NCBI RefSeq assembly: GCF_003634585.1
Contig: NZ_RBLG01000002.1
Span: forward strand, 186,001-250,000
Source of the DNA: Gillisia mitskevichiae
Lineage (GTDB): Bacteria; Bacteroidota; Bacteroidia; Flavobacteriales; Flavobacteriaceae
Direction of reading: 5' to 3'
Length of the DNA stretch: 64,000 nt
Both the position numbers and the translations under genes were made by a program. The notes under the pieces were generated by a model, which saw only the letters and a list, made by a program, of their open reading frames with translations, was not told the DNA's origin and did no database searches. This document shows, piece by piece, positions 6,648 through 27,315 of the stretch (position 1 is its first letter; every line of letters begins with the position of its first letter).

Positions 6648-7177
6648 AATGTCTTACTTTCTTTTTACTGGATATGCATTTTCCATTTTTTAGAAGTGTC
6701 TTTTTTTAAAAAAAATAATAGATTACTTGCCAAAGTGGAAGAGCATCTGCTATTCAAAAATTTCTGCATAGTTGTTACAGAATATTAAAATTAAAGGAAA
6801 TGCAAAAATACGAATGTTTAAGTGCCCAAGTACAAAGGTTTCTTATGAAAACAGAATATAACGGGATAGTTTACATAGTATTGAATTATAGCCTTTAGTT
6901 TCTGTACACATCATAATTCAGCTCATTATTTTTTAATATAGGTATCAACCACTTGCTAAACCATATTTAAAAGTATACCATAGGGTTAAGCGTTATATTA
7001 TTTGAACTGAGTGAAAGAAGAGTAGAATGAACTCACAATCTGTTAGTTTTCTTTCCAAAATTTTCATTCAGATCTTATATATAACTAGCCATTTACGCTA
7101 CCAGCCCAATAGAAATGGGGGAAATTGTTGGTAGAACATTGTGGTTGAACAAATCATCTTTATTAACGGATTTTCGT
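6648..7177. other. Gene-free stretch, about 530 bp
   Basis: No supported gene or RNA was found here between the ThiE-like gene and the propeller lipoprotein. It holds one candidate promoter for each neighbour, AT-rich homopolymer runs near 6710, and only very short open frames. Confidence 0.5.
6803..6829 (-). promoter_or_regulatory. Candidate Bacteroidota promoter for the ThiE-like gene
   Basis: Read on the minus strand, a perfect -7 box TATTTTTG (6803-6810) has a TTG (6827-6829) 16 bp upstream. It would give a leader of about 150 nt, with no TPP riboswitch motif visible in it. Confidence 0.35.
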
Positions 7178-7185
7178 TATGTTTG
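7178..7185 (+). promoter_or_regulatory. -7 box of the propeller-lipoprotein operon
   Basis: TATGTTTG matches TAnnTTTG exactly and overlaps the ATG at 7179. This argues that 7179 is not the translation start and supports the ATG at 7215, about 25 nt after the expected transcription start. Confidence 0.5.
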
Positions 7186-7214
7186 TTTTCTCCAATGAAA
7201 AATTCAATATTTTG

Positions 7215-8594
7215 ATGAAATACTTCACTTTAATTCTACTTATCCTATGTTTTTCTTGCTCATCTGATGATGACAATTCTCATATTAATTCAAAACCAGG
7301 ATCCATACAAATCGAGGAAATTCTTTTAGATGGTAAAAAAGTAACTATAGACTGGAGTGATGCCAAAGATGAAGATGATGACCAGATATTTTATAAATTA
7401 TATATAAACTCCATTCTTATTTCAGAAACTACAGAATCTATAGGTGCTACGACTTTAGAGTATAATAAAGATTATACGGGTAGAATAATAGGTTCAGATA
7501 AGAACGGTGGGACAACAGAAGTTAGTTTTAATTTTTCTAGCGCTAATAGTAAAATATTATTGTTTGCAGATGGTTCTGGAGCCTTAAATGCTATCGATCT
7601 TTTTAGTTTACAACCAATGTGGTCTACTAGAACCTCAAATATAGAAAGCCATAGCATATCCGATAATATGGTTTATTCTGGTGTTAATGGTATCAATGGA
7701 TTGGATATTCTTACTGGAGAAAATATATGGTCAAGTACACCTAGCCGTAATTTTAATGATGAATATAGAAATATTATTATAGATGATTTAAATGTTTACG
7801 CTTTCGATGCTGATTCTAATTTGTTTTGTGTTAATAAAATAACAGGAGGGAAGCTATGGGAACGAAGTTTTCTAGGCTATTATGCTCCTTTATCTATAGA
7901 TTCTGAGAATGTATTTGCGTGTAGTAGGAATAATGATCATTTATATGCTATTAATAAAAAAACAGGCTTAACAAACTGGAGCTTTAGATTAAGTAATAAT
8001 AATACAGGAGCTGCCACTAAAATCAACACAAATCCTTTAATTGTAAATAACGATATCTATTTTGGTGATAATATTGGTAGGTTTTATTCTCTTAATAAAA
8101 ATACAGGCTCTATAAATTGGACTATCAATGCAGGTAAGTATAATCCATTTTATCCTTCTCCAACACAATTTAACCAATCTGTTATTGTTGGTACTTATAG
8201 AACGCTCTATGCTTATAATTTAAATACTGGTTCTACAGTATGGGAATATAATTCTCCTACTGGTGTCTTAGAGACTTCTCCATTTGTCTATAACGATAAA
8301 GTATACATTGGTATCTCAAATAATGGCAGTGGCGAATTATTATGTTTAAATGCGAAAAACGGTTCGGTGATTTGGAGTCAAGTTTTAGAAAATAACACAA
8401 CTTCTTCTCCAATTGTTTTTGAAAATACAGTATACATAGGAGATTGGAACAAAAACTTGTATGCTATAAATGCTGAAACAGGTGTAATGGATTGGAAAAT
8501 AAAAAGTGAAGGAGTCATATTTAAATCTCCAACAATTGTGATTGGCGAAGGGGAAACAGTGATTTACCCAAGTGTAAGCGGATTAAAAAATTAA
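7215..8594 (+). CDS. PQQ-like beta-propeller lipoprotein
   Basis: I place the start at ATG 7215 rather than 7179 because only then does the protein begin with a normal lipoprotein signal (MKYFTLILLILCFSC, then SSDDD), and because a promoter box overlaps 7179. A fibronectin-like beta domain follows (roughly residues 28-110), then about seven PQQ_2-type blades marked by recurring xxxTGxxxW motifs such as DILTGENIW, NKITGGKLW, NKKTGLTNW and NLNTGSTVW. The enzyme motifs of quinoprotein dehydrogenases are not evident, so a binding or scaffold role at the outer membrane is more likely, as with BamB-like propellers. It is followed 9 bp later by another lipoprotein and flanked by gene-poor DNA. Confidence 0.85.
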   Translation: MKYFTLILLILCFSCSSDDDNSHINSKPGSIQIEEILLDGKKVTIDWSDAKDEDDDQIFYKLYINSILISETTESIGATTLEYNKDYTGRIIGSDKNGGTTEVSFNFSSANSKILLFADGSGALNAIDLFSLQPMWSTRTSNIESHSISDNMVYSGVNGINGLDILTGENIWSSTPSRNFNDEYRNIIIDDLNVYAFDADSNLFCVNKITGGKLWERSFLGYYAPLSIDSENVFACSRNNDHLYAINKKTGLTNWSFRLSNNNTGAATKINTNPLIVNNDIYFGDNIGRFYSLNKNTGSINWTINAGKYNPFYPSPTQFNQSVIVGTYRTLYAYNLNTGSTVWEYNSPTGVLETSPFVYNDKVYIGISNNGSGELLCLNAKNGSVIWSQVLENNTTSSPIVFENTVYIGDWNKNLYAINAETGVMDWKIKSEGVIFKSPTIVIGEGETVIYPSVSGLKN

Positions 8595-11972: not shown

Positions 11973-12267
11973 AACATACCTGTATTTACCAAAACTAGAA
12001 AGAATATTAATTTTAGGTATGGGCAAATCCACTATTAAATTATTATGTAACGACCAGATAAACCTTTCAACTCAAATTTTTGGATTGCCAGATACAAAAA
12101 TCTTGCTTTCGGCATCTCTTTTTAGGTTCTTAGTGGCAAACAAAAAAATCAGTATTGTTGGAAGCACTTAAGCTAGCCGTATTCGCTTTCAACTTCTAAG
12201 AATAAAATTCCGAAGAATTTTTAAAATTTAAAATAGCAGTATTCACTTATCCAATCATCGTATTTAA

Positions 12268-12711
12268 TTAGTGTGCTACCCCAGCTTCAAAAGCATCACT
12301 CCATTTAGACGCAACACCCACAGCTGGAATTAATTCAGCAAAGATCTTTAAATGCCTGCGCTCATAATGTTTGTTCTTATTCAAGATGCCTAATTTCAAT
12401 TTAAGCTTGCTATCTATAGATTGGATCCTAGAAGTTGCTATTATATGAATAGAGATCTTTCCTAACATATCATCTTCGGTTTCCTGTGGGATTGCAGAGA
12501 TCGTACTTTCATCCCAGTTATTTAAAATTATTGGTATATCTTCTTTTCCTCGTATATCGTAAGCATAGAGATATAGCATGTATTCCATTTCTAAACGAAG
12601 GTCTACAGCATGAAATTCAATTTTAGTATGCACAGGAATAATGCTTGAATCTGTACCAACTTCAATAATTTCTGGAAATTCTGAAGGCTTTACTGAAAGG
12701 ATCTTTGCCAT
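12268..12711 (-). CDS. Hypothetical protein, 147 aa
   Basis: I do not recognise this protein. It has no signal peptide or TM segment and is predicted cytosolic, with a mixed alpha/beta composition (segments KIEFHAVDLRLEMEYMLYLY and KISIHIIATSRIQ). It starts 27 bp after the stop of the GIN-domain gene on the same strand and is probably co-transcribed with it. The reading frame is clean, the start has a normal ATG and codon use resembles the neighbours, so it is likely a real gene. Any link to envelope or cell-surface function is only suggested by its partner. Confidence 0.6.
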   Translation of the reverse strand: MAKILSVKPSEFPEIIEVGTDSSIIPVHTKIEFHAVDLRLEMEYMLYLYAYDIRGKEDIPIILNNWDESTISAIPQETEDDMLGKISIHIIATSRIQSIDSKLKLKLGILNKNKHYERRHLKIFAELIPAVGVASKWSDAFEAGVAH

Positions 12712-12738
12712 AATTACTTAATTATATTTAATACTAGC

Positions 12739-13566
12739 TTACTTTTTTATTATTCTGGATCTATCGGTTAAACCTTTAACCTCTATCTGAGGATTACCAT
12801 ATACATAAACCTTGCTTTTTCCTTCTATATCTATACTCAGGTTTTTGGTGGCATGTATATAAATATCAGCACTATTGGAAGCATTTAGTATTGCAGTTCT
12901 TGCTTTCATTTTCTTAGTTTTCAACTCTGCTGAATTTTTCAAATTAAAAATAGCATTATTCACTTTGCCGTCCATATCCATTTCCGCCGACTTAGATAAT
13001 TGCGCCGATAAATTTTCAGCATCCATTTTACCTTTCAAATCTGATCTGTCACTAATATTAACAGTCACCTCCTTTGCCTTTAGATCTAATTTTCCACCAG
13101 AATTCTTGGTTAAAATTATGCTGGCATTCTGCGCCTCTATATCTAGATCGAACTTTGTAGATTGATTTCCCGTAAAACTAAAAATATCTGAAGATAAAGT
13201 GCCTTGAGTTTCTAGTTCTGCATCATCATTTAAAATAATAGTAGAAATACCTTTTACGCTTAAAAAGACTTCTAATTTTTTACTACCTGTAATTTTAGCA
13301 GTCGTAAACATTTTAAGCACTCCATTGGTAACTTCTACATTTACCACTTCAGCAAGATTCTTATCTGTAGTAAGAACATAACTATTCTTATTACTTTGAG
13401 CTATGGTCACCTTTAAGTTATTGCTGATCTCCAATACACTAAATTCCTTATCTATGGTATTACTTACAGAGATCACATCCTTATCCCCTTTAATTTTTTC
13501 CGTTTTTTGAGCTACACTTATTTGTACGAAACCTAATAAGAGTAAAATACATAATTTTGTCTTCAT
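12739..13566 (-). CDS. Secreted GIN-domain (DUF2807) protein
   Basis: This 275-residue protein has a cleavable signal (MKTKLCILLLLGFVQISVAQ) and then the beta-helix-like head GIN domain (DUF2807): repeated short strands ending in turns such as GVLKMFTTAKITGSKKLEVF, LSAQLSKSAEMDMDGK and AILNASNSADIYIHATK, with the NASNSADIYIHA type core usual for this family. Family members are exported, of unknown function, and often annotated as auto-transporter adhesins without having a translocator domain. It lies upstream of a small hypothetical gene with a 27-bp gap. No recognisable -7 box was found directly in front of it. Confidence 0.85.
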   Translation of the reverse strand: MKTKLCILLLLGFVQISVAQKTEKIKGDKDVISVSNTIDKEFSVLEISNNLKVTIAQSNKNSYVLTTDKNLAEVVNVEVTNGVLKMFTTAKITGSKKLEVFLSVKGISTIILNDDAELETQGTLSSDIFSFTGNQSTKFDLDIEAQNASIILTKNSGGKLDLKAKEVTVNISDRSDLKGKMDAENLSAQLSKSAEMDMDGKVNNAIFNLKNSAELKTKKMKARTAILNASNSADIYIHATKNLSIDIEGKSKVYVYGNPQIEVKGLTDRSRIIKK

Positions 13567-19816: not shown

Positions 19817-20539
19817 CTAAGACTGAATTCTGCTGAGTTTATTTAGTATATCGGTTTGTTCACCATCTTCTAAATTGAAAGCTGGCTTTCCATGTAATGG
19901 GAAAAGATAACTAAAGGATTCTTCAAAAGCTCCCCAACTTTCGGCTAATCCAAATTCAGAATTTTTACTATCCATTGTAGGTCTAGAAAAATTATTTTCT
20001 TCAGTAGAATAACTGGAACCTATGGCATCTTCTCCTGTAAACAACATACCGTCATTGATATCTGAATAGATCAAAATAGATCCTCCCCCATTTCCAGGCA
20101 AGTCATAGATCTTTAAGCCAAAGTGTTTAGTTACCTCCTGCTTCCCAGTGATATCCTTTAAATTATAGTCGTCTTTAATAGAATTTCTTGGATGTGCAAA
20201 AATTGGAGCTCCTCCAGCGTCTTCAGAAATTGTTTTAAGATCTGCATATGCATTTTTATAGACCGAGGAGTTACTAAGGATAATTCCTTTTATAGTATAC
20301 CCATCGGTTACAAGTTGTTTTACTGCTTTTAGGGTTTCTTTTTCAACTACGTCTATTAAAAGAATGTCTTTTCTATTAATATGTCTAATTGCATATCCTT
20401 GATTAAATCCATTTTCTTGTTCGCTACCTTTTATTATAAAAGTATCGGGAATCAATTTTAAAAATTTTCCGGTCTCTCCTTGTAAAATAAATTCGGCTGT
20501 TTGGCTATGTAAAATCTCCATTTTATCTACTGTCTTCAT
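19817..20539 (-). CDS. MBL-fold-like protein lacking the HxHxDH metal motif
   Basis: The start at 20539 (MKTVDKMEILHSQ) is favoured over 20596, which would add 19 residues of leader-like sequence; both lie downstream of the phosphopantetheinyl transferase on the same strand. The order of elements resembles the metallo-beta-lactamase fold: DILLIDV strand, GIILSNSSVYKNAY where LTHxHxDH is expected, PIFAHPRN, LFTGEDAIG and a terminal LFPLHGKP. The His/Asp metal ligands of the first motif are absent, so two-metal hydrolysis is unlikely. It could be the last gene of the polyketide operon or a separate gene; no -7 box is seen before it. Confidence 0.6.
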   Translation of the reverse strand: MKTVDKMEILHSQTAEFILQGETGKFLKLIPDTFIIKGSEQENGFNQGYAIRHINRKDILLIDVVEKETLKAVKQLVTDGYTIKGIILSNSSVYKNAYADLKTISEDAGGAPIFAHPRNSIKDDYNLKDITGKQEVTKHFGLKIYDLPGNGGGSILIYSDINDGMLFTGEDAIGSSYSTEENNFSRPTMDSKNSEFGLAESWGAFEESFSYLFPLHGKPAFNLEDGEQTDILNKLSRIQS

Positions 20540-20622
20540 AAGATATTTTGGTTTTAAATTATATTTAAATTTACAAAGGGATGATAGCAAGGCCATCTCC
20601 TTTAATATTCTTTAACGAGCAT

Positions 20623-21198
20623 TTAGCAGTTCATTAACGCGATTGCAAATGCAGCAAATTTTCCGTGATGAGAAAGAGAAAATACCTGATTGGTATTTAT
20701 ATTGTTGCTAAACAATTCAGGAATATTATGATATTTTTTTTTAATTCTAAAATTTGTTTTCGGCTCTTTTAAAAGTAAGGAATATTCACTAAATAATTTG
20801 TCTTTTAGAATATTTTCATCTTCAAAAACTTTTATACTTGTAGACTGAGTTTTTTTTGAAGTTGCTGAACTGTGGATAGTTAGGGATGTAATCCTTGATT
20901 GAGTGTAGTAAGTATAGCTATTAACCCTTACAATTCCGTGTAATTTTTCTTTATTTTCTGATATAATTTTACATTGAAAATCTAGCGGATTATAGGTTCT
21001 AGGCAAATTGAATAAACGTTGATGTGCTTTATAAGCTGATTCCTTTAATGTCCAAAATAATTGAAGAGAGATCTTAGGATTGTCGGAATTAAAAATAACA
21101 AATTGCTCTGTAGGAGTATATAATTTATTCAAATAACGAGGATTGTTCCAATTTGGAGAGATCGGTATATTAAGGTCTATTATATCATTACCTATCAA
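20623..21198 (-). CDS. 4'-phosphopantetheinyl transferase superfamily protein
   Basis: This 191-residue enzyme of the Sfp/AcpS superfamily transfers phosphopantetheine from CoA to the serine of a carrier protein. MIGNDIIDL carries the Mg-binding Asp5, and WTLKESAYK (49-57) is the WxxKE(A/S)xxK signature; FSLSHHGKFAAFAIA forms a late beta-hairpin. Its ATG overlaps the stop of the acyl carrier protein gene by 4 bp, so its most likely client is that carrier protein. A dedicated transferase inside the operon suggests the carrier is not efficiently served by the housekeeping AcpS. Confidence 0.88.
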   Translation of the reverse strand: MIGNDIIDLNIPISPNWNNPRYLNKLYTPTEQFVIFNSDNPKISLQLFWTLKESAYKAHQRLFNLPRTYNPLDFQCKIISENKEKLHGIVRVNSYTYYTQSRITSLTIHSSATSKKTQSTSIKVFEDENILKDKLFSEYSLLLKEPKTNFRIKKKYHNIPELFSNNINTNQVFSLSHHGKFAAFAIALMNC

Positions 21199-21446
21199 TT
21201 TTCAATTTTAGCTAATATTATTCTTTTAGCATCTCCGGCAGTAAGCATTCCTTCCATCGAAGTGTTATCTATTTCTATATTAAATTCATCTTCAACATCC
21301 AAAATAACATCTACTAGATTCGCTGAGTTTATTTTTAGGTCAGTTAAAAAATCAGTTTTTTCATCAAAATCCTCTAGCCCTTCTTTGCGTTGAACATAAG
21401 GAGTTACGATGGCCTTTATTTTTTCTAAAATTGTTTTGTCTGTCAT
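21195..21446 (-). CDS. Acyl carrier protein of the polyketide operon
   Basis: I set the start at 21446 (MTDKTILEKIKAIV), giving an 83-residue protein; an upstream ATG at 21512 would add an unusual 22-residue extension abutting a tandem repeat. The phosphopantetheine serine is Ser41 in LKINSANLVDV, where most ACPs read DSL; the following acidic helix (VILDVEDEFNIEI) is standard. The variant NSAN motif distinguishes it from the fatty acid ACP and fits a specialised pathway. It overlaps the transferase gene by 4 bp and follows the ketosynthase after a repeat-containing gap of 159 bp. Confidence 0.88.
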   Translation of the reverse strand: MTDKTILEKIKAIVTPYVQRKEGLEDFDEKTDFLTDLKINSANLVDVILDVEDEFNIEIDNTSMEGMLTAGDAKRIILAKIEN

Positions 21447-21513
21447 GAGGCTAATATAATAATCTATTTGAGGTGAAAAGTAAAAAATATTACTGTTCTG
21501 TTCAAGGTTCACG

Positions 21514-21560
21514 GTTCAAGGTTTGAGGTTTGAGGTTTGAGGTTTGAGGTTTGAGGTTTA
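21514..21560. repeat. Heptanucleotide tandem repeat (GTTTGAG)n
   Basis: There are five perfect copies of GTTTGAG (21521-21555), a partial sixth, and degenerate copies on the left (GGTTCAAG, GGTTCAC). It lies in the leader of the ACP gene, between the ketosynthase stop and the ACP start. The unit is not a multiple of three and the array is non-coding in the chosen gene model. Confidence 0.9.
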
Positions 21561-21605
21561 AAAATTTAAATAAGAAATCCGAAATCTTGAATATAAAATT
21601 TTGAA

Positions 21606-22874
21606 TTAAACATATTTCTTAAAAATAACCACCGCATTCACATCTCCAAAGCCAAAACTTGCTTTTGCTATTATATTGATAGGTTCTTCAATTATTTTCC
21701 TTGGAATACGTTCTTCTGAAATTAGATCTAAGATCTCTGGATGAACTTCGTCACAATTAATATTTGGAAAAATAAAATCTTTATCTATTTGCAACACACT
21801 TGCCACACACTCCATACTCCCTGAAGCACTTAAACAATGTCCTGTCATTCCTTTAAGAGAATTGATATATGGAAATACTGAATTTGAACTTAAAGCCTGA
21901 ACCCAATTCTTAATTTCTACGGAATCTTTACTCGTTGCTGTTAAATGTCCATTAATCAGGTCTATTTCTGAAGCTGATACCTTTGAGTTTTTTAAAGCTC
22001 CTACAATGCAACGTTGTACTGCTTCATTATTTGCAGCCGTCATACTTCCTTCTCCCCTTTGTCCGCCACTGTTTACTTCTCCCCCAAGCACTTCGGTATA
22101 GATCTTGGCACCTCGTTCCAAAGCAGACTCAAGATCTTCCAAAATTAAAGCTCCAGCTCCACTTCCAGGAACAAATCCAGATGCATTTGCACTCATAGGT
22201 TGGGAGGCAGCTTCTGGATATTCATTATAATTGCCTGGAAGAATACGCATAGCATCAAATCCGCCCCAGACATAGGGTCCATGATCACTACAACTTCCCA
22301 CTAACATTCTTTGCGCTTTTCCAGCTTTTATGCGCTCATAACCCATTAAAAGGGCTTCTGTTCCTGTAGTACATGCAGAAGAATTAGTAGTCACCTGATT
22401 ACCACAACCTAAAATACCTCCCAGATAAGCACTTATCCCACTTGCCATGGTTTGTATTACACTGGTACTGCCTAGACGTCTTGTTTTTCCCTCATCTATT
22501 AAATGAATGGCTTCTCTAAATTTATCTACGCCTAAGATTCCGGTTCCAAAAATAATCCCAGTGTCCCAATCTGGAGATGAACCATCCGAGATCTCAAGTC
22601 CGGCATCTTTCCAAGCATCGGTTCCGGAGATCACACCGTATACAATTCCACTGCTATTTAAGCCCCGAAGTTGTAAAGGCGTAAAATATTCAGCTAGCTT
22701 GGTTTCAGAAATTTCAGGCTTCCCTCCTATTTGGCAACTAAAATTAAGCTCTTTAAGTTGAGGATGAAAAGTGATCCCGCTCGTGCCAGACCTTAAAGAT
22801 TCTTCAAATTCAGGAATACTTACTCCATTGGGAGAACAAATTCCTAAACCTGTAATTACAACTCTTTTTTCCAT
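21606..22874 (-). CDS. Beta-ketoacyl-ACP synthase, FabF-like (KAS I/II family)
   Basis: This 422-residue decarboxylating ketosynthase condenses malonyl-ACP with an acyl chain. The catalytic triad is intact: Cys168 in NSSACTTGT, His310 in NGHLTATSKD and His346 in KGMTGHCLSASG. The second motif reads NGHLTAT rather than NGTSTP with the His one place later, a pattern found in secondary-metabolite ketosynthases. It belongs to the carrier-protein branch of the operon and is followed by the ACP. Both flanking gaps contain heptamer repeats. Its likely role is chain building or modification of the acyl-ACP feeding the type III synthase; direct proof is lacking. Confidence 0.9.
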   Translation of the reverse strand: MEKRVVITGLGICSPNGVSIPEFEESLRSGTSGITFHPQLKELNFSCQIGGKPEISETKLAEYFTPLQLRGLNSSGIVYGVISGTDAWKDAGLEISDGSSPDWDTGIIFGTGILGVDKFREAIHLIDEGKTRRLGSTSVIQTMASGISAYLGGILGCGNQVTTNSSACTTGTEALLMGYERIKAGKAQRMLVGSCSDHGPYVWGGFDAMRILPGNYNEYPEAASQPMSANASGFVPGSGAGALILEDLESALERGAKIYTEVLGGEVNSGGQRGEGSMTAANNEAVQRCIVGALKNSKVSASEIDLINGHLTATSKDSVEIKNWVQALSSNSVFPYINSLKGMTGHCLSASGSMECVASVLQIDKDFIFPNINCDEVHPEILDLISEERIPRKIIEEPINIIAKASFGFGDVNAVVIFKKYV

Positions 22875-23088
22875 TATTGACTATTCCGAAATGTAGTTAA
22901 TCTTTATTCTGTAACCTTACGCAATGTTCTATCCGAGCGTATTCGAAAACTTTTCTATTAGAAATGAAGTTTTCTAAACTACTCAACCTGACATCTCTAT
23001 TATAAATATAATCCCTAGAATACCCCAACAAATTAAATCTTAAACATCAAACTTGAAACTTGAAACCTGAAATTTTGAATTTTAGATC
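22875..23088. other. Intra-operon gap with heptad repeats
   Basis: This unusually long 214-bp gap inside an otherwise tight operon holds no gene. Near its right end (23041-23081), AAACTTG-type heptamers run into AAATTTTGAATT. Read on the plus strand, these match the minus-strand reading (AAACCTC) of the array at 21.5 kb, so the two arrays face in opposite directions on either side of the ketosynthase. Confidence 0.6.
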
Positions 23089-23538
23089 TCATTTACGAAT
23101 CATGCCCGCGATCGTCCCCCGGCAAACCAATTCATTATTACTATTGAACATTTCTACACCACATTTTAATTTATTGAATCTAAAATATTCCTTTTTTGAA
23201 ACCACCTTTATTTGCTCTCCGGGATATACCGGAATAAAAAAATCTATTTGACTGGAACTTAATGCAATTTGAATATTCTCTGTTAGCGCAGGATTTTCTT
23301 GGTTAGTTATATTCAGAAGAAAGCTTCCTAAACATACTACTCCTATCTGCGCCATACATTCTGTTAAGATCACTCCAGGAGTTACAGGATTATCTTTAAA
23401 ATGCCCTTTATAAAAATAAGAATCATTAGGGAAACGATAAGTGCCCGTACAAGATTCTTCATCTATCTGTAAAATTTCATCTACAAATAGAAATGGATAA
23501 GTATAAGGAAGTGTGGAAATTATAGAATTAAAACTCAC
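23089..23538 (-). CDS. FabZ-like 3-hydroxyacyl-ACP dehydratase
   Basis: This 149-residue single hot-dog domain protein of the FabZ family dehydrates 3-hydroxyacyl-ACP. LPYTYPFLFVDEI (10-22) matches the LPHRYPFLLVD motif, and the active-site pair is His46 (KGHFKDNPVTPG) with Glu60 (ILTECMAQ), 14 residues apart as in FabZ. Length and catalytic residues are normal. It sits 42 bp after the SDR and before the ketosynthase, and should act on intermediates carried by the operon's ACP. Confidence 0.9.
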   Translation of the reverse strand: MSFNSIISTLPYTYPFLFVDEILQIDEESCTGTYRFPNDSYFYKGHFKDNPVTPGVILTECMAQIGVVCLGSFLLNITNQENPALTENIQIALSSSQIDFFIPVYPGEQIKVVSKKEYFRFNKLKCGVEMFNSNNELVCRGTIAGMIRK

Positions 23539-23580
23539 TTTAAAAATCGAAATTTTGGTTAAAGCTAAATTTTGAATGAA

Positions 23581-24375
23581 TTATTTAAGATGTTCCCCAC
23601 CATTCACAGGGATTATTGTCCCCGTGATCCAACTGGCTTCATCTTTACTTAAAAGATATACCACATTGGCCACATCGTTTGGAACGGTTAAACGCTTAAA
23701 TGGATTATGTTTTAATGCATGCATTCTCAACGTCTCATTTCCCGGAATCATCTGGAAAGATCTGGTAACTGTAACTCCAGCCTGAATACAATTTGCACGA
23801 ATACCATATCTTGCAAATTCAAGTGCCATGCTTCTTGTTATTGATTCTAGAACTACCTTGGCAGCAGAAACAGCTGCATAATTCTCCCAAGCCTTTTTAT
23901 TTCCTTCACTGGTAAAAGAAATTACTCGAGCATCTTTAGCAAATAATCCTGATTGATAAACAGCTTCAGTCCAGTCGTATAAACTCAATGCCATTGCATC
24001 TATAGTGATTTGGAAATCTATGTTTTCTAAAAAAGGCCCCTCACCACTCATCGGCTTTAAATTTCCTTTGGCAATGCTATGTACTAAAGTCCTTATTTTA
24101 CCTTTCTCTCCTAAAATAGAGGTGATCTCCTTTATTAGATCTGCCCTTTTCTCTTTTTGAATAGCATCTACATTAAAACTTTCTAACTGAACGCCAGAAT
24201 TTCTAATGTCCTCAAAAGCTTCCTCGATATCTGGAATTTCAGAGCGTCTATCCCTATGAATAATTATAATATTCATGCCGTGTTTGGCAAGTTTTCGGGC
24301 TGTTGCAAGTCCAAGTCCGCTGCTGCCTCCCAGGATCAATGCCCAGTAATTAAGATCTTTAAATTCTGCTACCAT
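23581..24375 (-). CDS. SDR-family reductase with Y-X6-K active site (enoyl-ACP reductase-like)
   Basis: This 264-residue Rossmann protein has LGGSSGLGLATA (15-26) as the cofactor motif; HRDRR after the second strand suggests NADPH. The active-site spacing is Tyr166 to Lys173 (ENYAAVSAAK), that is Y-X6-K, as in FabI/FabL enoyl-ACP reductases, rather than the YxxxK of FabG and other classical SDRs. VHSIAKGNLKPM also resembles the FabI/FabL loop. The likely reaction is reduction of a trans-2-enoyl-ACP, though aberrant ketoreductases exist. Its start overlaps the type III synthase stop by 7 bp, so the two are translationally coupled. Confidence 0.82.
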   Translation of the reverse strand: MVAEFKDLNYWALILGGSSGLGLATARKLAKHGMNIIIIHRDRRSEIPDIEEAFEDIRNSGVQLESFNVDAIQKEKRADLIKEITSILGEKGKIRTLVHSIAKGNLKPMSGEGPFLENIDFQITIDAMALSLYDWTEAVYQSGLFAKDARVISFTSEGNKKAWENYAAVSAAKVVLESITRSMALEFARYGIRANCIQAGVTVTRSFQMIPGNETLRMHALKHNPFKRLTVPNDVANVVYLLSKDEASWITGTIIPVNGGEHLK

Positions 24376-25421
24376 TCTATTAAAATTCGTTGAGCTGAAA
24401 ACCCGGGACCAAAACTTAAAAGTAAACCCTGCTCTCCTTTTGGTATTTCTTTCTGAAGAAATCTTTCCAAAACATAAAGCACGGTTACACTACTCATGTT
24501 CCCATATAGTCTAAGTACTTCTCGGGTATCATCTATATTCTTCCCTAAGATACCAAAAAGATCAGACACTGTTTGTACTATCTTTCTTCCACCTGGATGA
24601 AAAATTAAATGTTGTACTTTATCTATAGAACTACCATTTTTCTCTAAAAAAGGATAAATAATATCTGGGAAATGATTTGAAATAGTTTCTGGAACAGACT
24701 CATCCAAGATCATTTGCAACCCGGAATTAGCAAGGTGAAAGCCCATTAAATGAGTAGCATCAAAAAAGTGATACATTTCTTCCCCTATAATTTTAGGCCC
24801 TACAGCATCTTCTTCAGAAGAAAGCAATACACAAGCTGCTCCATCTCCAAAAATTGCTGCACTCACCATATTGGCCATACTAAAATCTCCTAATTGAAAG
24901 GTAGCAGTTGGACTTTCAACCGCAACAATAGCTGCTCTTTTTCCAGGATTGGCTTGTAAAAATTTATGGGCGTAGATCATTCCAGAAATTCCTGCAGCAC
25001 AACCCATTTCGGTTACTGGAAGTCTGGTGATATTTTGATTTAGTTGTAATTCGTTAATTAGATAAGCATCCAAAGAAGGGATCATGATGCCAGTGCAACT
25101 AACCGTGATTATAAAATCTAAAGATCCTGGTTCCCAGTTATTCTGGTCTAATGCATCCTTAAGTACGTTTTTACCTAATTTCTTAACCTCCCTAACATAG
25201 ATGTTATTTTTCTCTTCAAAAGAAGTCGCCGTAAAAACCTCCTCTGGAGCCATTATAGAATATCGCTTATCTACACCAGCACCTTCAAATATCTTAGTGA
25301 TCTTTCTCCTAAAGCGTTCGTCCTTTTCATCCAGCCAATCCTCGACCAATGGTATTATATCTGAAGTTTCTCTAAAATATTTTGGGAGTTCTTTTTGAAC
25401 GCTTATAATTCTTACACTCAT
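24369..25421 (-). CDS. Type III polyketide synthase (chalcone/stilbene synthase family)
   Basis: This 350-residue homodimeric-type ketosynthase extends a CoA- or ACP-bound starter with malonyl units and cyclises the product. The Cys-His-Asn triad of type III synthases is visible: Cys141 (EMGCAAG), His275 (HPGGRKIV) and Asn308 (LYGNMSSVT), followed by the C-terminal SFGPG loop. FGDGAACVLL (191-200) is the other family signature. HPGG and GNMSS separate it from KAS III and HMG-CoA synthases. It lies 6 bp after the methyltransferase and overlaps the SDR. The starter may be an acyl chain from the co-encoded ACP system; ring type (resorcinol, pyrone or phloroglucinol) cannot be told from sequence. 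Confidence 0.88.
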   Translation of the reverse strand: MSVRIISVQKELPKYFRETSDIIPLVEDWLDEKDERFRRKITKIFEGAGVDKRYSIMAPEEVFTATSFEEKNNIYVREVKKLGKNVLKDALDQNNWEPGSLDFIITVSCTGIMIPSLDAYLINELQLNQNITRLPVTEMGCAAGISGMIYAHKFLQANPGKRAAIVAVESPTATFQLGDFSMANMVSAAIFGDGAACVLLSSEEDAVGPKIIGEEMYHFFDATHLMGFHLANSGLQMILDESVPETISNHFPDIIYPFLEKNGSSIDKVQHLIFHPGGRKIVQTVSDLFGILGKNIDDTREVLRLYGNMSSVTVLYVLERFLQKEIPKGEQGLLLSFGPGFSAQRILIEW

Positions 25422-25427
25422 AAGGGG

Positions 25428-26141
25428 TTATTTTTTTAAGATCCAACGGTAACGGAATGCCCATTTCCATTTTATACTATGTTTTTGAGAAGGGATTTCT
25501 TTGGCTAAATTTTCTAGATCATTCTTTTTGAAACCCCGAAGAATAGACGTTAATCCATCTTTTCTTGCAATCTCATTGTTGATGAACACTTTACAGAAAG
25601 CCTGAAATAAAATATATGCGGTTTTACTTCGCTGAAGATCATTTATTACAACCCCTTTTTTAGATTGATGCATAAAAGTATTTAGTAATTCTAAGATCTC
25701 CTCATTTTTAAAATGGTGAAGAGTGAGGGTGCAAAGCACTATATCGTATTTCTGCTCTTTATAGGTCTCACTAAAAATGTTTAAGGCTTCGAACTTTATT
25801 TCAGGATAATAATTGGATCTTCTTTGGGCAATTTCAACCGCGTATGGGTTTGCATCTATCCCAATAAGTTCTAAATTAAAATTTTGATTTCTACCCCAAT
25901 TAGCAATTTCTCGAAGTACAGCCCCACTACCGCAACCTACATCTGCTATTCTTATCGTTGTTTGCTCCGGAGTGTCTTTCAAAAGAACTTGAATTCCCTC
26001 TAAGGTGATCTTATTTCCGCCCAACCATTTATTTATCTTTTCAAGATCACTCAGGGTTTGCTCTAGTTCTTCCCCTTTTAATTCGAAATCATCCATGATC
26101 TCGGCTTCTTCACTGCGTTTTGAAGTATTTATAGAAATCAT
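25428..26141 (-). CDS. Class I SAM-dependent methyltransferase
   Basis: This 237-residue protein has a class I methyltransferase core: motif I IADVGCGSGAVL (about 84-95), LIGIDANPYAVEIA (acidic end of the second strand) and DIVLCTLTLHHF (motif IV/post-motif). The C-terminal part (TAYILFQAFCKVFINNEIARKD) resembles methyltransferases that pair with flavoenzymes in phenolic and quinone biosynthesis. The ATG overlaps the FAD gene stop by 4 bp, and the type III synthase starts 6 bp later, so O- or C-methylation of the polyketide is the most likely role. The substrate is an inference from context. Confidence 0.85.
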   Translation of the reverse strand: MISINTSKRSEEAEIMDDFELKGEELEQTLSDLEKINKWLGGNKITLEGIQVLLKDTPEQTTIRIADVGCGSGAVLREIANWGRNQNFNLELIGIDANPYAVEIAQRRSNYYPEIKFEALNIFSETYKEQKYDIVLCTLTLHHFKNEEILELLNTFMHQSKKGVVINDLQRSKTAYILFQAFCKVFINNEIARKDGLTSILRGFKKNDLENLAKEIPSQKHSIKWKWAFRYRWILKK

Positions 26142-27262
26142 AATATTGGGTTTCCGTGGGTTCTTGAAATAATTTTTGGGAGCAATGAAGGGAAGCTACT
26201 TATAATTTTTTGAACGATATTTGAAAGCTTTGGATTTAATAAAATATTTTGCAAAATATTACCCATCCGTAATCTGGAGCTAAACTGTTCTTTCCAATTT
26301 TTTTGATATTCCTTTTCCATATCTTCTCTATTGTAGGTTTCATTTTCGTAATATTTGAGAATTACTTCTGAAGCGATCTTAGCGCTATGGATCGCCATGG
26401 CCATGCCATTCCCCGACAAAGGATGAATTAGTCCTGCCGCATCTCCTAACATTAGAATATGATCTTCCACACTAGATTTCTTTTTAAATGATATCTGTGC
26501 AATGCTAAGGTCTCTATCAAATAATGGGATTGCATCCTGAAAAAAAGAATTTAAATGAGGGTTTTGCATTAAAATTTCACTTTTAAAAGTGCTTGGATCT
26601 TTATGTGCTTTAAAGCTATTATAGGAAGCCAAATAACAAACATTAATAGCTCCAGATTCGGTTTTAGATAATCCGCAATACCCACCTTTAAAATTATGTA
26701 GCATTACTAGATCATCTGGAAAATCTTCTTTTATATAATGTCCTTTTATTGCTAACCATCCAGACTTTTGATCGATAAAATCACGATACAATTTTTTATC
26801 CAATAATGAGCGTTTTCCATAAGCTCCTAATATCAAATGAAAGTGATACGTATCTTTTTTATTGGTGATTAATTCGAATTCATTTTCAATAAATTTCACA
26901 TCGGTTACCAATTTGTGAACGAACTTAACACCAAAGGAAATTGCTTTTTGATACAGAAATTCATCTAAAGTATAACGGGAGACCCCTAAACCGCCTAGGG
27001 GCAATGTTGTGTCTATTAATTTTCCAGATACATCGCTGTATTGAAGCTTGCTTATTTTGGCAGGATTAAGATCTAATAGATCAATTCCAAGTTGTTCTAA
27101 GTATGGTACGATCTCCAGAGATAGATATTCTCCACAAACTTTATGGCTAGGATAAGAGTCTTTCTCGAATACTGTAACAAGCAAATTATTTTTAGAAAGA
27201 TGAATAGCAGAAACGAGGCCTGATAGACCACCGCCGATAATTCCTATAGATTTTTTTTTCAC
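26138..27262 (-). CDS. FAD-dependent oxidoreductase (geranylgeranyl reductase / monooxygenase-like)
   Basis: This 374-residue flavoprotein of the PHBH/geranylgeranyl-reductase superfamily begins GIIGGGLSGLVSAIHLS (dinucleotide motif), has CGEYLSLE typical of the reductase-like subgroup, and GDAAGLIHPLSGNGMAMA (273-290), the FAD ribityl-binding motif. The start codon is GTG. It is the first gene of the polyketide operon, 74 bp from the OmpA gene with a strong terminator in between, so the operon needs its own promoter in a very short space; no TAnnTTTG box is visible there. Likely role: hydroxylation, halogenation or reduction of the aromatic product. The exact chemistry is open. Confidence 0.85.
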   Translation of the reverse strand: MKKKSIGIIGGGLSGLVSAIHLSKNNLLVTVFEKDSYPSHKVCGEYLSLEIVPYLEQLGIDLLDLNPAKISKLQYSDVSGKLIDTTLPLGGLGVSRYTLDEFLYQKAISFGVKFVHKLVTDVKFIENEFELITNKKDTYHFHLILGAYGKRSLLDKKLYRDFIDQKSGWLAIKGHYIKEDFPDDLVMLHNFKGGYCGLSKTESGAINVCYLASYNSFKAHKDPSTFKSEILMQNPHLNSFFQDAIPLFDRDLSIAQISFKKKSSVEDHILMLGDAAGLIHPLSGNGMAMAIHSAKIASEVILKYYENETYNREDMEKEYQKNWKEQFSSRLRMGNILQNILLNPKLSNIVQKIISSFPSLLPKIISRTHGNPIL

Positions 27263-27283: not shown

Positions 27284-27315
27284 AACAAAAAAATCCCGGG
27301 GGAAACCCGGGATTT
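27284..27315 (-). terminator. Rho-independent terminator of the lipocalin-OmpA operon
   Basis: AAATCCCGGG (27291-27300) and CCCGGGATTT (27306-27315) form a perfect 10-bp stem with a 5-nt loop. On the minus strand it is followed by a T-run. It separates the OmpA gene from the polyketide operon downstream. Confidence 0.9.

Follow-up and report, generated by a model that had tools for sequence, protein, structure and literature searches.

What a type III polyketide synthase (PKS) makes, and from which starter, when its gene shares an operon with a private carrier-protein system is the question raised by positions 20623-27262 of a 64,000-nt stretch of Gillisia mitskevichiae DNA, the whole of which we refer to as the window. 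Here eight open reading frames (ORFs) follow one another on the minus strand from 27262 to 20623 and encode, in this order, a flavin adenine dinucleotide (FAD)-dependent oxidoreductase, a methyltransferase (MT), the type III PKS, a short-chain dehydrogenase/reductase (SDR), a dehydratase (DH), a beta-ketoacyl-ACP synthase (KS), an acyl carrier protein (ACP) and a phosphopantetheinyl transferase (PPT). We find that the original prediction for this locus is partly supported: a conserved operon equipped with its own carrier stands, whereas the proposed parallel to srsABC of Streptomyces griseus and the role of the SDR need revision. The operon is best read, by analogy, as a putative combination of hidABC-like tailoring with a counterpart of Azotobacter arsABCD made up of discrete proteins.

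A conserved operon with its own carrier protein

Each of the eight adjacent ORFs has a Pfam match above the family cut-off for the class originally assigned to it, and the best NCBIfam matches of the eight proteins all lie below their respective cut-offs. ORF coordinates give overlaps of 4 bp (FAD/MT), 7 bp (PKS/SDR) and 4 bp (ACP/PPT), and 6 bp separate the MT and PKS genes. The overlaps or short gaps described earlier are thus present at several junctions, but not between the DH and KS genes, which lie 214 bp apart with no called gene in between, nor between those for KS and ACP, where a start of the ACP at the conserved Met at 21446 leaves a gap of ~160 bp, the ORF as called being probably ~22 residues too long.

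Across a family sample of 249 genomes, searched at E<=1e-40 for the PKS and E<=1e-90 for the KS with one match per genome, 86 genomes have a PKS match, comprising 85 orthologs (60-100% identical) and the protein of genome G072, which is considered below. PKS and KS occur together in 84 genomes, the PKS alone in one (G138) and the KS alone in none; in G138, other genes are inserted after the SDR and the contig breaks off within DH. Start positions of PKS and KS are at most 7 kb apart, on the same contig, in 81 of the 84 genomes, and the three non-adjacent pairs belong to a fragmented assembly (G066), to G190, whose DH-KS-ACP block lies elsewhere on the same contig, 356 kb from the PKS, and to G144, whose halves are found on two contigs. 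Similarly, Pedobacter insulae (G629) carries the PKS on contig C8 and DH-KS-ACP-PPT on contig C7. The retention of both halves despite their separation in G190, G144 and P. insulae points to a functional link and provides our strongest evidence for joint action.

Gene order tells the same story at the level of individual loci. Among the 80 named loci, taken as the best of 112, tblastn detected PKS and MT in all 80, DH and KS in 77 each, FAD in 76, ACP in 71, PPT in 59 and SDR in 56; all eight genes are present in 37, and FAD-MT-PKS-DH-KS appear in order on one strand in 74. Contig ends cut three of the six order-breaking loci (L082, L106, L112), and the other three (L101, L102, L110) represent P. 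insulae and two Dyadobacter; in both of the latter the locus is split into two blocks of divergent orientation and lacks a FAD match. Operon-bearing loci span Flavobacteriaceae genera, Chitinophaga and Pedobacter. Joint conservation in relatives, suggested earlier as a check on the operon, is therefore borne out both by this five-gene order and by the PKS-KS pairing in 84 of 85 genomes. Together with the Pfam content, it upholds the claim that the type III PKS shares an operon with a dedicated carrier-protein system: the operon is real, conserved and widespread, far beyond the genus.

The synthase, its tailoring pair and the acyl-chain enzymes

The window PKS combines the Cys-His-Asn triad, the (S/G)FGPG loop and the thiolase fold by which type III PKSs are recognized. 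C141-H275-N308 and SFGPGF (336-341) are invariant in 47 of 47 aligned sequences and at least 97% conserved in 80, and structural modelling returns a normal fold (pLDDT 87.8), so that the triad and loop of the original prediction withstand both comparisons. The nearest named PKS, from Gillisia sp. CAL575, is 96% identical. The closest solved folds are PKS11 (TM ~0.92) and CylI (0.91), which both act on alkyl chains; PKS11, an alkylpyrone synthase, is also the closest solved sequence, and the best NCBIfam match is DpgA, with 164.5 bits against a cut-off of 425.

For comparison, 51 distant-PKS loci (L148-L198) were taken non-randomly from the phylum match list, except for L148, which came from the family search; L162, L167, L172 and L183 were dropped because ORF calling had missed the PKS frame, two of them being the same place, and 47 were classified. 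The other Bacteroidota PKSs fetched are 27-35% identical to that of the window, and the classified loci comprise 11 in which the PKS accompanies an ICMT-type methyltransferase, 25 trios of PKS, MT and flavoprotein (24 with both tailoring genes and L190 with the FAD gene only) and 11 with neither arrangement. In quick trees, as are all our PKS, MT and FAD trees, the window PKSs form a single clade on one side of a long-stemmed branch (SH-aLRT 100), separate from both the ICMT-linked and the trio PKSs. M113, T137, H218 and F228 are fixed in this clade and absent from most other PKSs compared. At the one pocket position checked, which we take to be the ArsB/ArsC switch, the window clade has Phe in 27 of 27 sequences, PKS11 (pyrone) Trp and CylI (resorcinol) Leu; Trp is also found in 11/11 type B, 25/25 trio and 7/7 plasmid sequences. 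A prediction of cyclisation from this single position was accordingly dropped.

The aforementioned G072 protein (L148) belongs to a different kind of type III PKS (32% identical), and the other seven genes are absent from the four ORFs on each side of it. PKSs of other kinds are likewise encoded on the seven plasmid records looked at among 209 with a match, two of them beside annotated ICMT-family genes. Within this set, the PKSs of L202 (CP065518.1, a Stenotrophomonas rhizophila plasmid) and L203 (a Lysinibacillus fusiformis plasmid) are near-identical, with branch lengths of 0 and 0.034, and CP065518.1 also carries a predicted FosB-type gene; given such similarity under the names of two distant phyla, one of these records may be misnamed or contaminated.

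The kinship of the tailoring enzymes is different from that of the PKS. The MT has class I domains, no ICMT match in Pfam, a best NCBIfam match to PRK06202, below cut-off, and a weak match to UbiG. MT and flavoprotein are 27-41% and 37-45% identical, respectively, to their counterparts in the nine trios located near a UbiA-like gene (L165, L168, L180, L181, L182, L189, L191, L192 and L195); the other trios extend to lower values, reaching 19% for the flavoprotein among the matches listed. The window group again occupies one side of a branch in the MT tree (support 78) and the FAD tree (support 93). Given this kinship to the trios and the separate PKS clade, the tailoring pair appears to be of the trio kind and the PKS to represent a lineage of its own. 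The UbiA-like assignment itself comes from a weak Pfam match in which a 150-residue fragment of one member scored 21.2 bits, below the cut-off of 34.2; the presence of such a gene near nine of the 25 trios would suggest prenylated aromatic products there. In two other loci, L065 and L074 (Ferruginibacter and another Chitinophagaceae metagenome-assembled genome), the operon contains two tandem methyltransferase genes, suggesting a doubly methylated product.

For the flavoprotein, the best NCBIfam matches are GG-red-SF and QhpG, both below cut-off, and the closest folds to its predicted model are those of flavin halogenases and 3-hydroxybenzoate 6-hydroxylase (TM ~0.76). Flavin-dependent halogenases carry a WxWxIP motif, which is absent from the window flavoprotein, and WxWxI is absent from the 74 family members scanned. 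A halogenase, top-ranked in sequence and fold searches yet missing this motif, is therefore an unlikely identity for the protein.

The remaining genes make up an acyl-chain module with well-preserved residues, which, as for the PKS, we presume to be the catalytic ones. C168-H310-H346 of the KS (73 homologs), H46-E60 of the DH (76), Y166/K173 of the SDR (56) and W49-K52-E53-K57 of the PPT (57) are all at least 97% conserved, in agreement with the intact triad previously described for a FabF-like KS. The KS matches FabF/FabB best, below the NCBIfam cut-offs but with FabB/FabF as best solved structures; the DH matches FabZ, also below cut-off. The ACP passes its Pfam threshold (PF00550) with 21.5 bits against 20.8. 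Where an ACP usually has D-S-L around the pantetheine-bearing Ser, it has N62-S63-A64, all three residues being at least 97% conserved in 66 homologs, which would fit a carrier drifted from the housekeeping ACP.

The Y-X6-K motif by which the SDR was first noted is present and conserved, but this spacing is that of enoyl reductases (FabI/FabL) and not of classical ketoreductases. The best NCBIfam match is FabL, at 135.5 bits well short of the cut-off of 328, the best solved structure is the enoyl reductase 3oic, and a VHSIA-type motif is found in 33 of the 56 homologs; the protein thus reads as a putative enoyl reductase (ER), the step plausibly saturating the chain. A match at E<=1e-60 is missing in 10 of the 85 PKS-holding family genomes, with at most 10 candidates scored per genome. 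Mapped on a quick 81-row PKS tree in which two rows carry no score (L101 and L106 left out; L093, L102 and L110 set by hand as SDR-bearing), the presence of the SDR requires at least 10 gains or losses, seven of which are forced by well-supported branches. In L101, neither half is accompanied by a reductase gene. Conversely, at L143 (G031:C17:206000-221000) a lone SDR, 75% identical, persists at 7157-7948 in the syntenic site from which the rest of the operon is lost. Given both this remnant and its scattered presence, the SDR looks optional, and is in that sense dispensable.

Several loci depart from this layout. A replacement reductase was considered for Polaribacter L060, L062, L063, L067 and L068, where the ORFs occupying the position of the SDR gene in other genera form one cluster, and was rejected, as the member tested (L060) is a Y1-type transposase. 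In L050 (Salinimicrobium nanhaiense), a second, different SDR is encoded at 11979-12761, between the enoyl reductase and the dehydratase. A ~143-aa conserved, hydrophobic-looking protein follows the ACP or PPT gene in L048, L051-L054, L065 and L093; the one member tested has no Pfam match, and most of these loci gave no PPT hit.

Proposed pathway and its alternatives

Among known systems, arsABCD of Azotobacter vinelandii, which makes phenolic lipids, has one large polyunsaturated fatty acid (PUFA)-synthase-like fatty acid synthase and two PKSs. By gene content, the window operon likewise unites a type III PKS with dedicated fatty-acid genes and a PPTase; it differs in its discrete KS, DH, ER, ACP and PPT, its one PKS and the addition of MT and flavoprotein. 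Flexirubin and aryl polyene clusters also bring together a dedicated KS, dehydratase, ACP and reductases in Bacteroidota, whereas the present operon has only one KS and includes a type III PKS, with neither DarA/DarB nor an aryl-priming gene among its eight. As originally proposed, the trio shares with srsABC the logic of a PKS, a methyltransferase and a flavoprotein; SrsB, however, is an ICMT-type membrane methyltransferase, the window MT is class I, and to our knowledge srsABC has no carrier system. We set srsABC aside as closest relative because the ICMT-linked Bacteroidota PKSs occupy another part of the tree; it is probably not the nearest parallel, the class I MT resembling hidABC-like trios instead.

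The ArsA-bound fatty acid is reported to be handed directly to ArsB/ArsC, and arsABCD to encode a PPTase besides a fatty acid synthase (PMC6274091, PMC4824345), the Azotobacter system being elsewhere credited with PUFA synthase-like genes (PMC13291983); arsABCD is, by analogy, the closest apparent precedent for acyl-ACP supply. SrsA resorcinols are converted to alkylquinones, and hidABC, like planctomycetal MT-oxidoreductase-PKS operons, makes alkylresorcinols (PMC10896814; cyanobacterial survey PMC8086630). As in hidABC of Cyanobium (hierridins), the PKS gene adjoins those for a methyltransferase and an oxidoreductase, which is FAD-dependent in Planctomycetota. The order here, FAD-MT-PKS, nevertheless differs from the commoner published methyltransferase-oxidoreductase-PKS, and the window has a fatty-acid module where none is described for either the hidABC or the planctomycetal operon. 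The Bacteroidota trios are hidABC-like by gene content, a comparison in which no Hid protein was aligned.

With little more than even confidence, we favor a pathway that is for the most part self-contained and yields an alkyl-aromatic lipid, both methylated and oxygenated, with the PKS primed from the private ACP. The PPT would load the ACP, on which the FabF/B-like KS and the FabZ-like DH, joined in ER-bearing genomes by the FabL-like enzyme, would build or extend an acyl chain, with housekeeping FabD and FabG supplying malonyl-ACP and ketoreduction. The PKS would then take the acyl group from the ACP, extend it with malonyl-CoA, cyclise it, most likely to an alkylresorcinol, and release it. 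Finally, the flavoprotein could hydroxylate the ring and the methyltransferase methylate it, giving a methoxy-hydroquinone-like lipid. The acyl-ACP hand-over, the mode of cyclisation, the order of tailoring and the product are inferred.

Several observations weigh against this pathway. No ketoreductase or malonyl transferase is encoded in the operon, G031 retains the SDR alone, and the fold search places halogenases level with hydroxylases for the flavoprotein. The PKS falls outside the trio-PKS clade, so that trio chemistry would not be transferable to it, and since most other PKSs compared lack the residues fixed in its clade, its product could be unlike any of theirs; nor does the pocket position discriminate between resorcinol and pyrone. 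No described product for the eight-gene set was found in the literature searched, which covered few subscription papers, in agreement with the original view of the product as undescribed. In one report, the counterpart of the MT in the planctomycete Gimesia maris is probably a C-methyltransferase and a role for the flavoprotein is not found (PMC10896814).

The same logic could hold with a PKS that lactonises the chain, in which case the product would be a methylated alkylpyrone and neither a resorcinol nor a quinone. PKS11, closest in both sequence and fold among solved structures, is an alkylpyrone synthase, and the non-discriminating switch position and the residues peculiar to the window clade also leave room for such a product; a flavin hydroxylase and a methyltransferase would, however, fit a phenolic ring better, and hid-type operons with such a pair yield resorcinols (PMC10896814). 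We consider the alkylpyrone unlikely. The two halves might instead make separate products and be merely co-selected, for instance for one membrane or one ester, as their separability as blocks, their divergence in Dyadobacter and the lone SDR of G031 would allow. Against this, the KS never occurs without the PKS across the 249 genomes and the PKS gene shares 7 bp with that of the SDR, and we regard independent products as improbable. A further alternative would be a route that starts with the ring, where the PKS makes a DpgA-like aromatic acyl unit that is loaded onto the ACP and elongated by KS and DH to an aryl-alkyl or aryl-polyene. DpgA is indeed the best NCBIfam match, and many lineages have KS and DH without an enoyl reductase, which would leave a polyene, but the score is far below cut-off, Pfam and NCBIfam reveal no DpgB/C/D-like helper, ligase or second KS in the operon, and housekeeping FabI could stand in for the missing reductase; we therefore give this route a very low probability.

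Returning to the ACP-primed alkyl-aromatic pathway, a more ambitious formulation is that the operon is the first instance of a route widespread in Bacteroidota, where a discrete fatty-acid module would, through a private ACP, be the sole supplier of a remodelled type III PKS, leading to a new class of quinone-like membrane lipids, with repeated ER loss making the tails saturated in some lineages and unsaturated in others. We put this forward tentatively, as a possibility that is rather more likely to fail than to hold.

Surroundings of the operon and its place in the family

Table 1. Features of the operon and its immediate flanks in window coordinates
Feature	Position	Strand	Basis
FAD-dependent oxidoreductase of the geranylgeranyl-reductase-like/aromatic monooxygenase/halogenase superfamily; proposed ring hydroxylase	26138..27262	-	PF01494; model pLDDT 88.4
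Class I S-adenosylmethionine (SAM) methyltransferase; proposed O- or C-methylation of ring	25428..26141	-	PF13847
Type III PKS, Cys141-His275-Asn308, SFGPGF loop	24369..25421	-	PF00195/PF02797; conservation; model
Enoyl-ACP-reductase-like SDR, Y166-X6-K173; optional component	23581..24375	-	Pfam, best structure, conservation
FabZ-like 3-hydroxyacyl-ACP dehydratase, H46/E60	23089..23538	-	PF07977; conservation
FabF/FabB-like elongating beta-ketoacyl-ACP synthase, C168-H310-H346; sole KS of the unit	21606..22874	-	PF00109/PF02801
Dedicated acyl carrier protein (called ORF extends to 21512)	21195..21446	-	PF00550
4'-Phosphopantetheinyl transferase, TTG start	20623..21198	-	PF01648
Intrinsic-terminator-like hairpin between upstream OmpA-family gene and operon	27291..27315	-	10-bp stem
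Conserved flanking gene, probably outside the pathway	19817..20596	-	no Pfam or NCBIfam match

Hairpins of the type seen upstream of the operon (27315-27291) number 3 in the region against 5.3 in shuffles, and the kind is thus not enriched. Predicted promoter sites are no different from chance (35 found, 33.3 expected), and scans of the window with Rfam, at gathering thresholds, and for tRNAs gave no match. The gene at 19817-20596 was considered as a ninth operon member and rejected because it persists in G031 after loss of the operon and is present in only 13 of the 80 loci.

A YceI-type gene (PF04264) flanks the operon in 17 of the 80 named loci (for example L060, L073, L052 and L065), in at least four placements that are always ~6 kb or less from the PKS, and has no other occurrence in the loci retrieved; of the four YceI genes in the genome that contains the window, none adjoins the operon. 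A gene for a lipid/isoprenoid-binding protein is also reported for the PKS operon of the planctomycete S. ferox (PMC10896814).

T3PKS clusters account for ~9-11% of Flavobacteriaceae biosynthetic clusters (PMC7440613, PMC10734526), and in the available text of surveys of the family or of single genera they are listed with the product not named (PMC7440613, PMC10734526, PMC9323603, PMC7477175). In our phylum sample, 41 genomes of the family could be counted among the matches listed, and 30 of them have a type III PKS match (E<=1e-30), in 30 of 30 cases of the window type; many of the 30 come from one genus, in a list ordered by kinship and with 209 non-matches not shown. The operon is built from known parts and combines the ideas of arsABCD and hidABC in discrete proteins, and, being small and defined, it would provide a discrete, reconstitutable system for a carrier protein feeding a type III PKS. 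With all 30 matches being of the window type, one compound family may therefore account for most Flavobacteriaceae T3PKS clusters.

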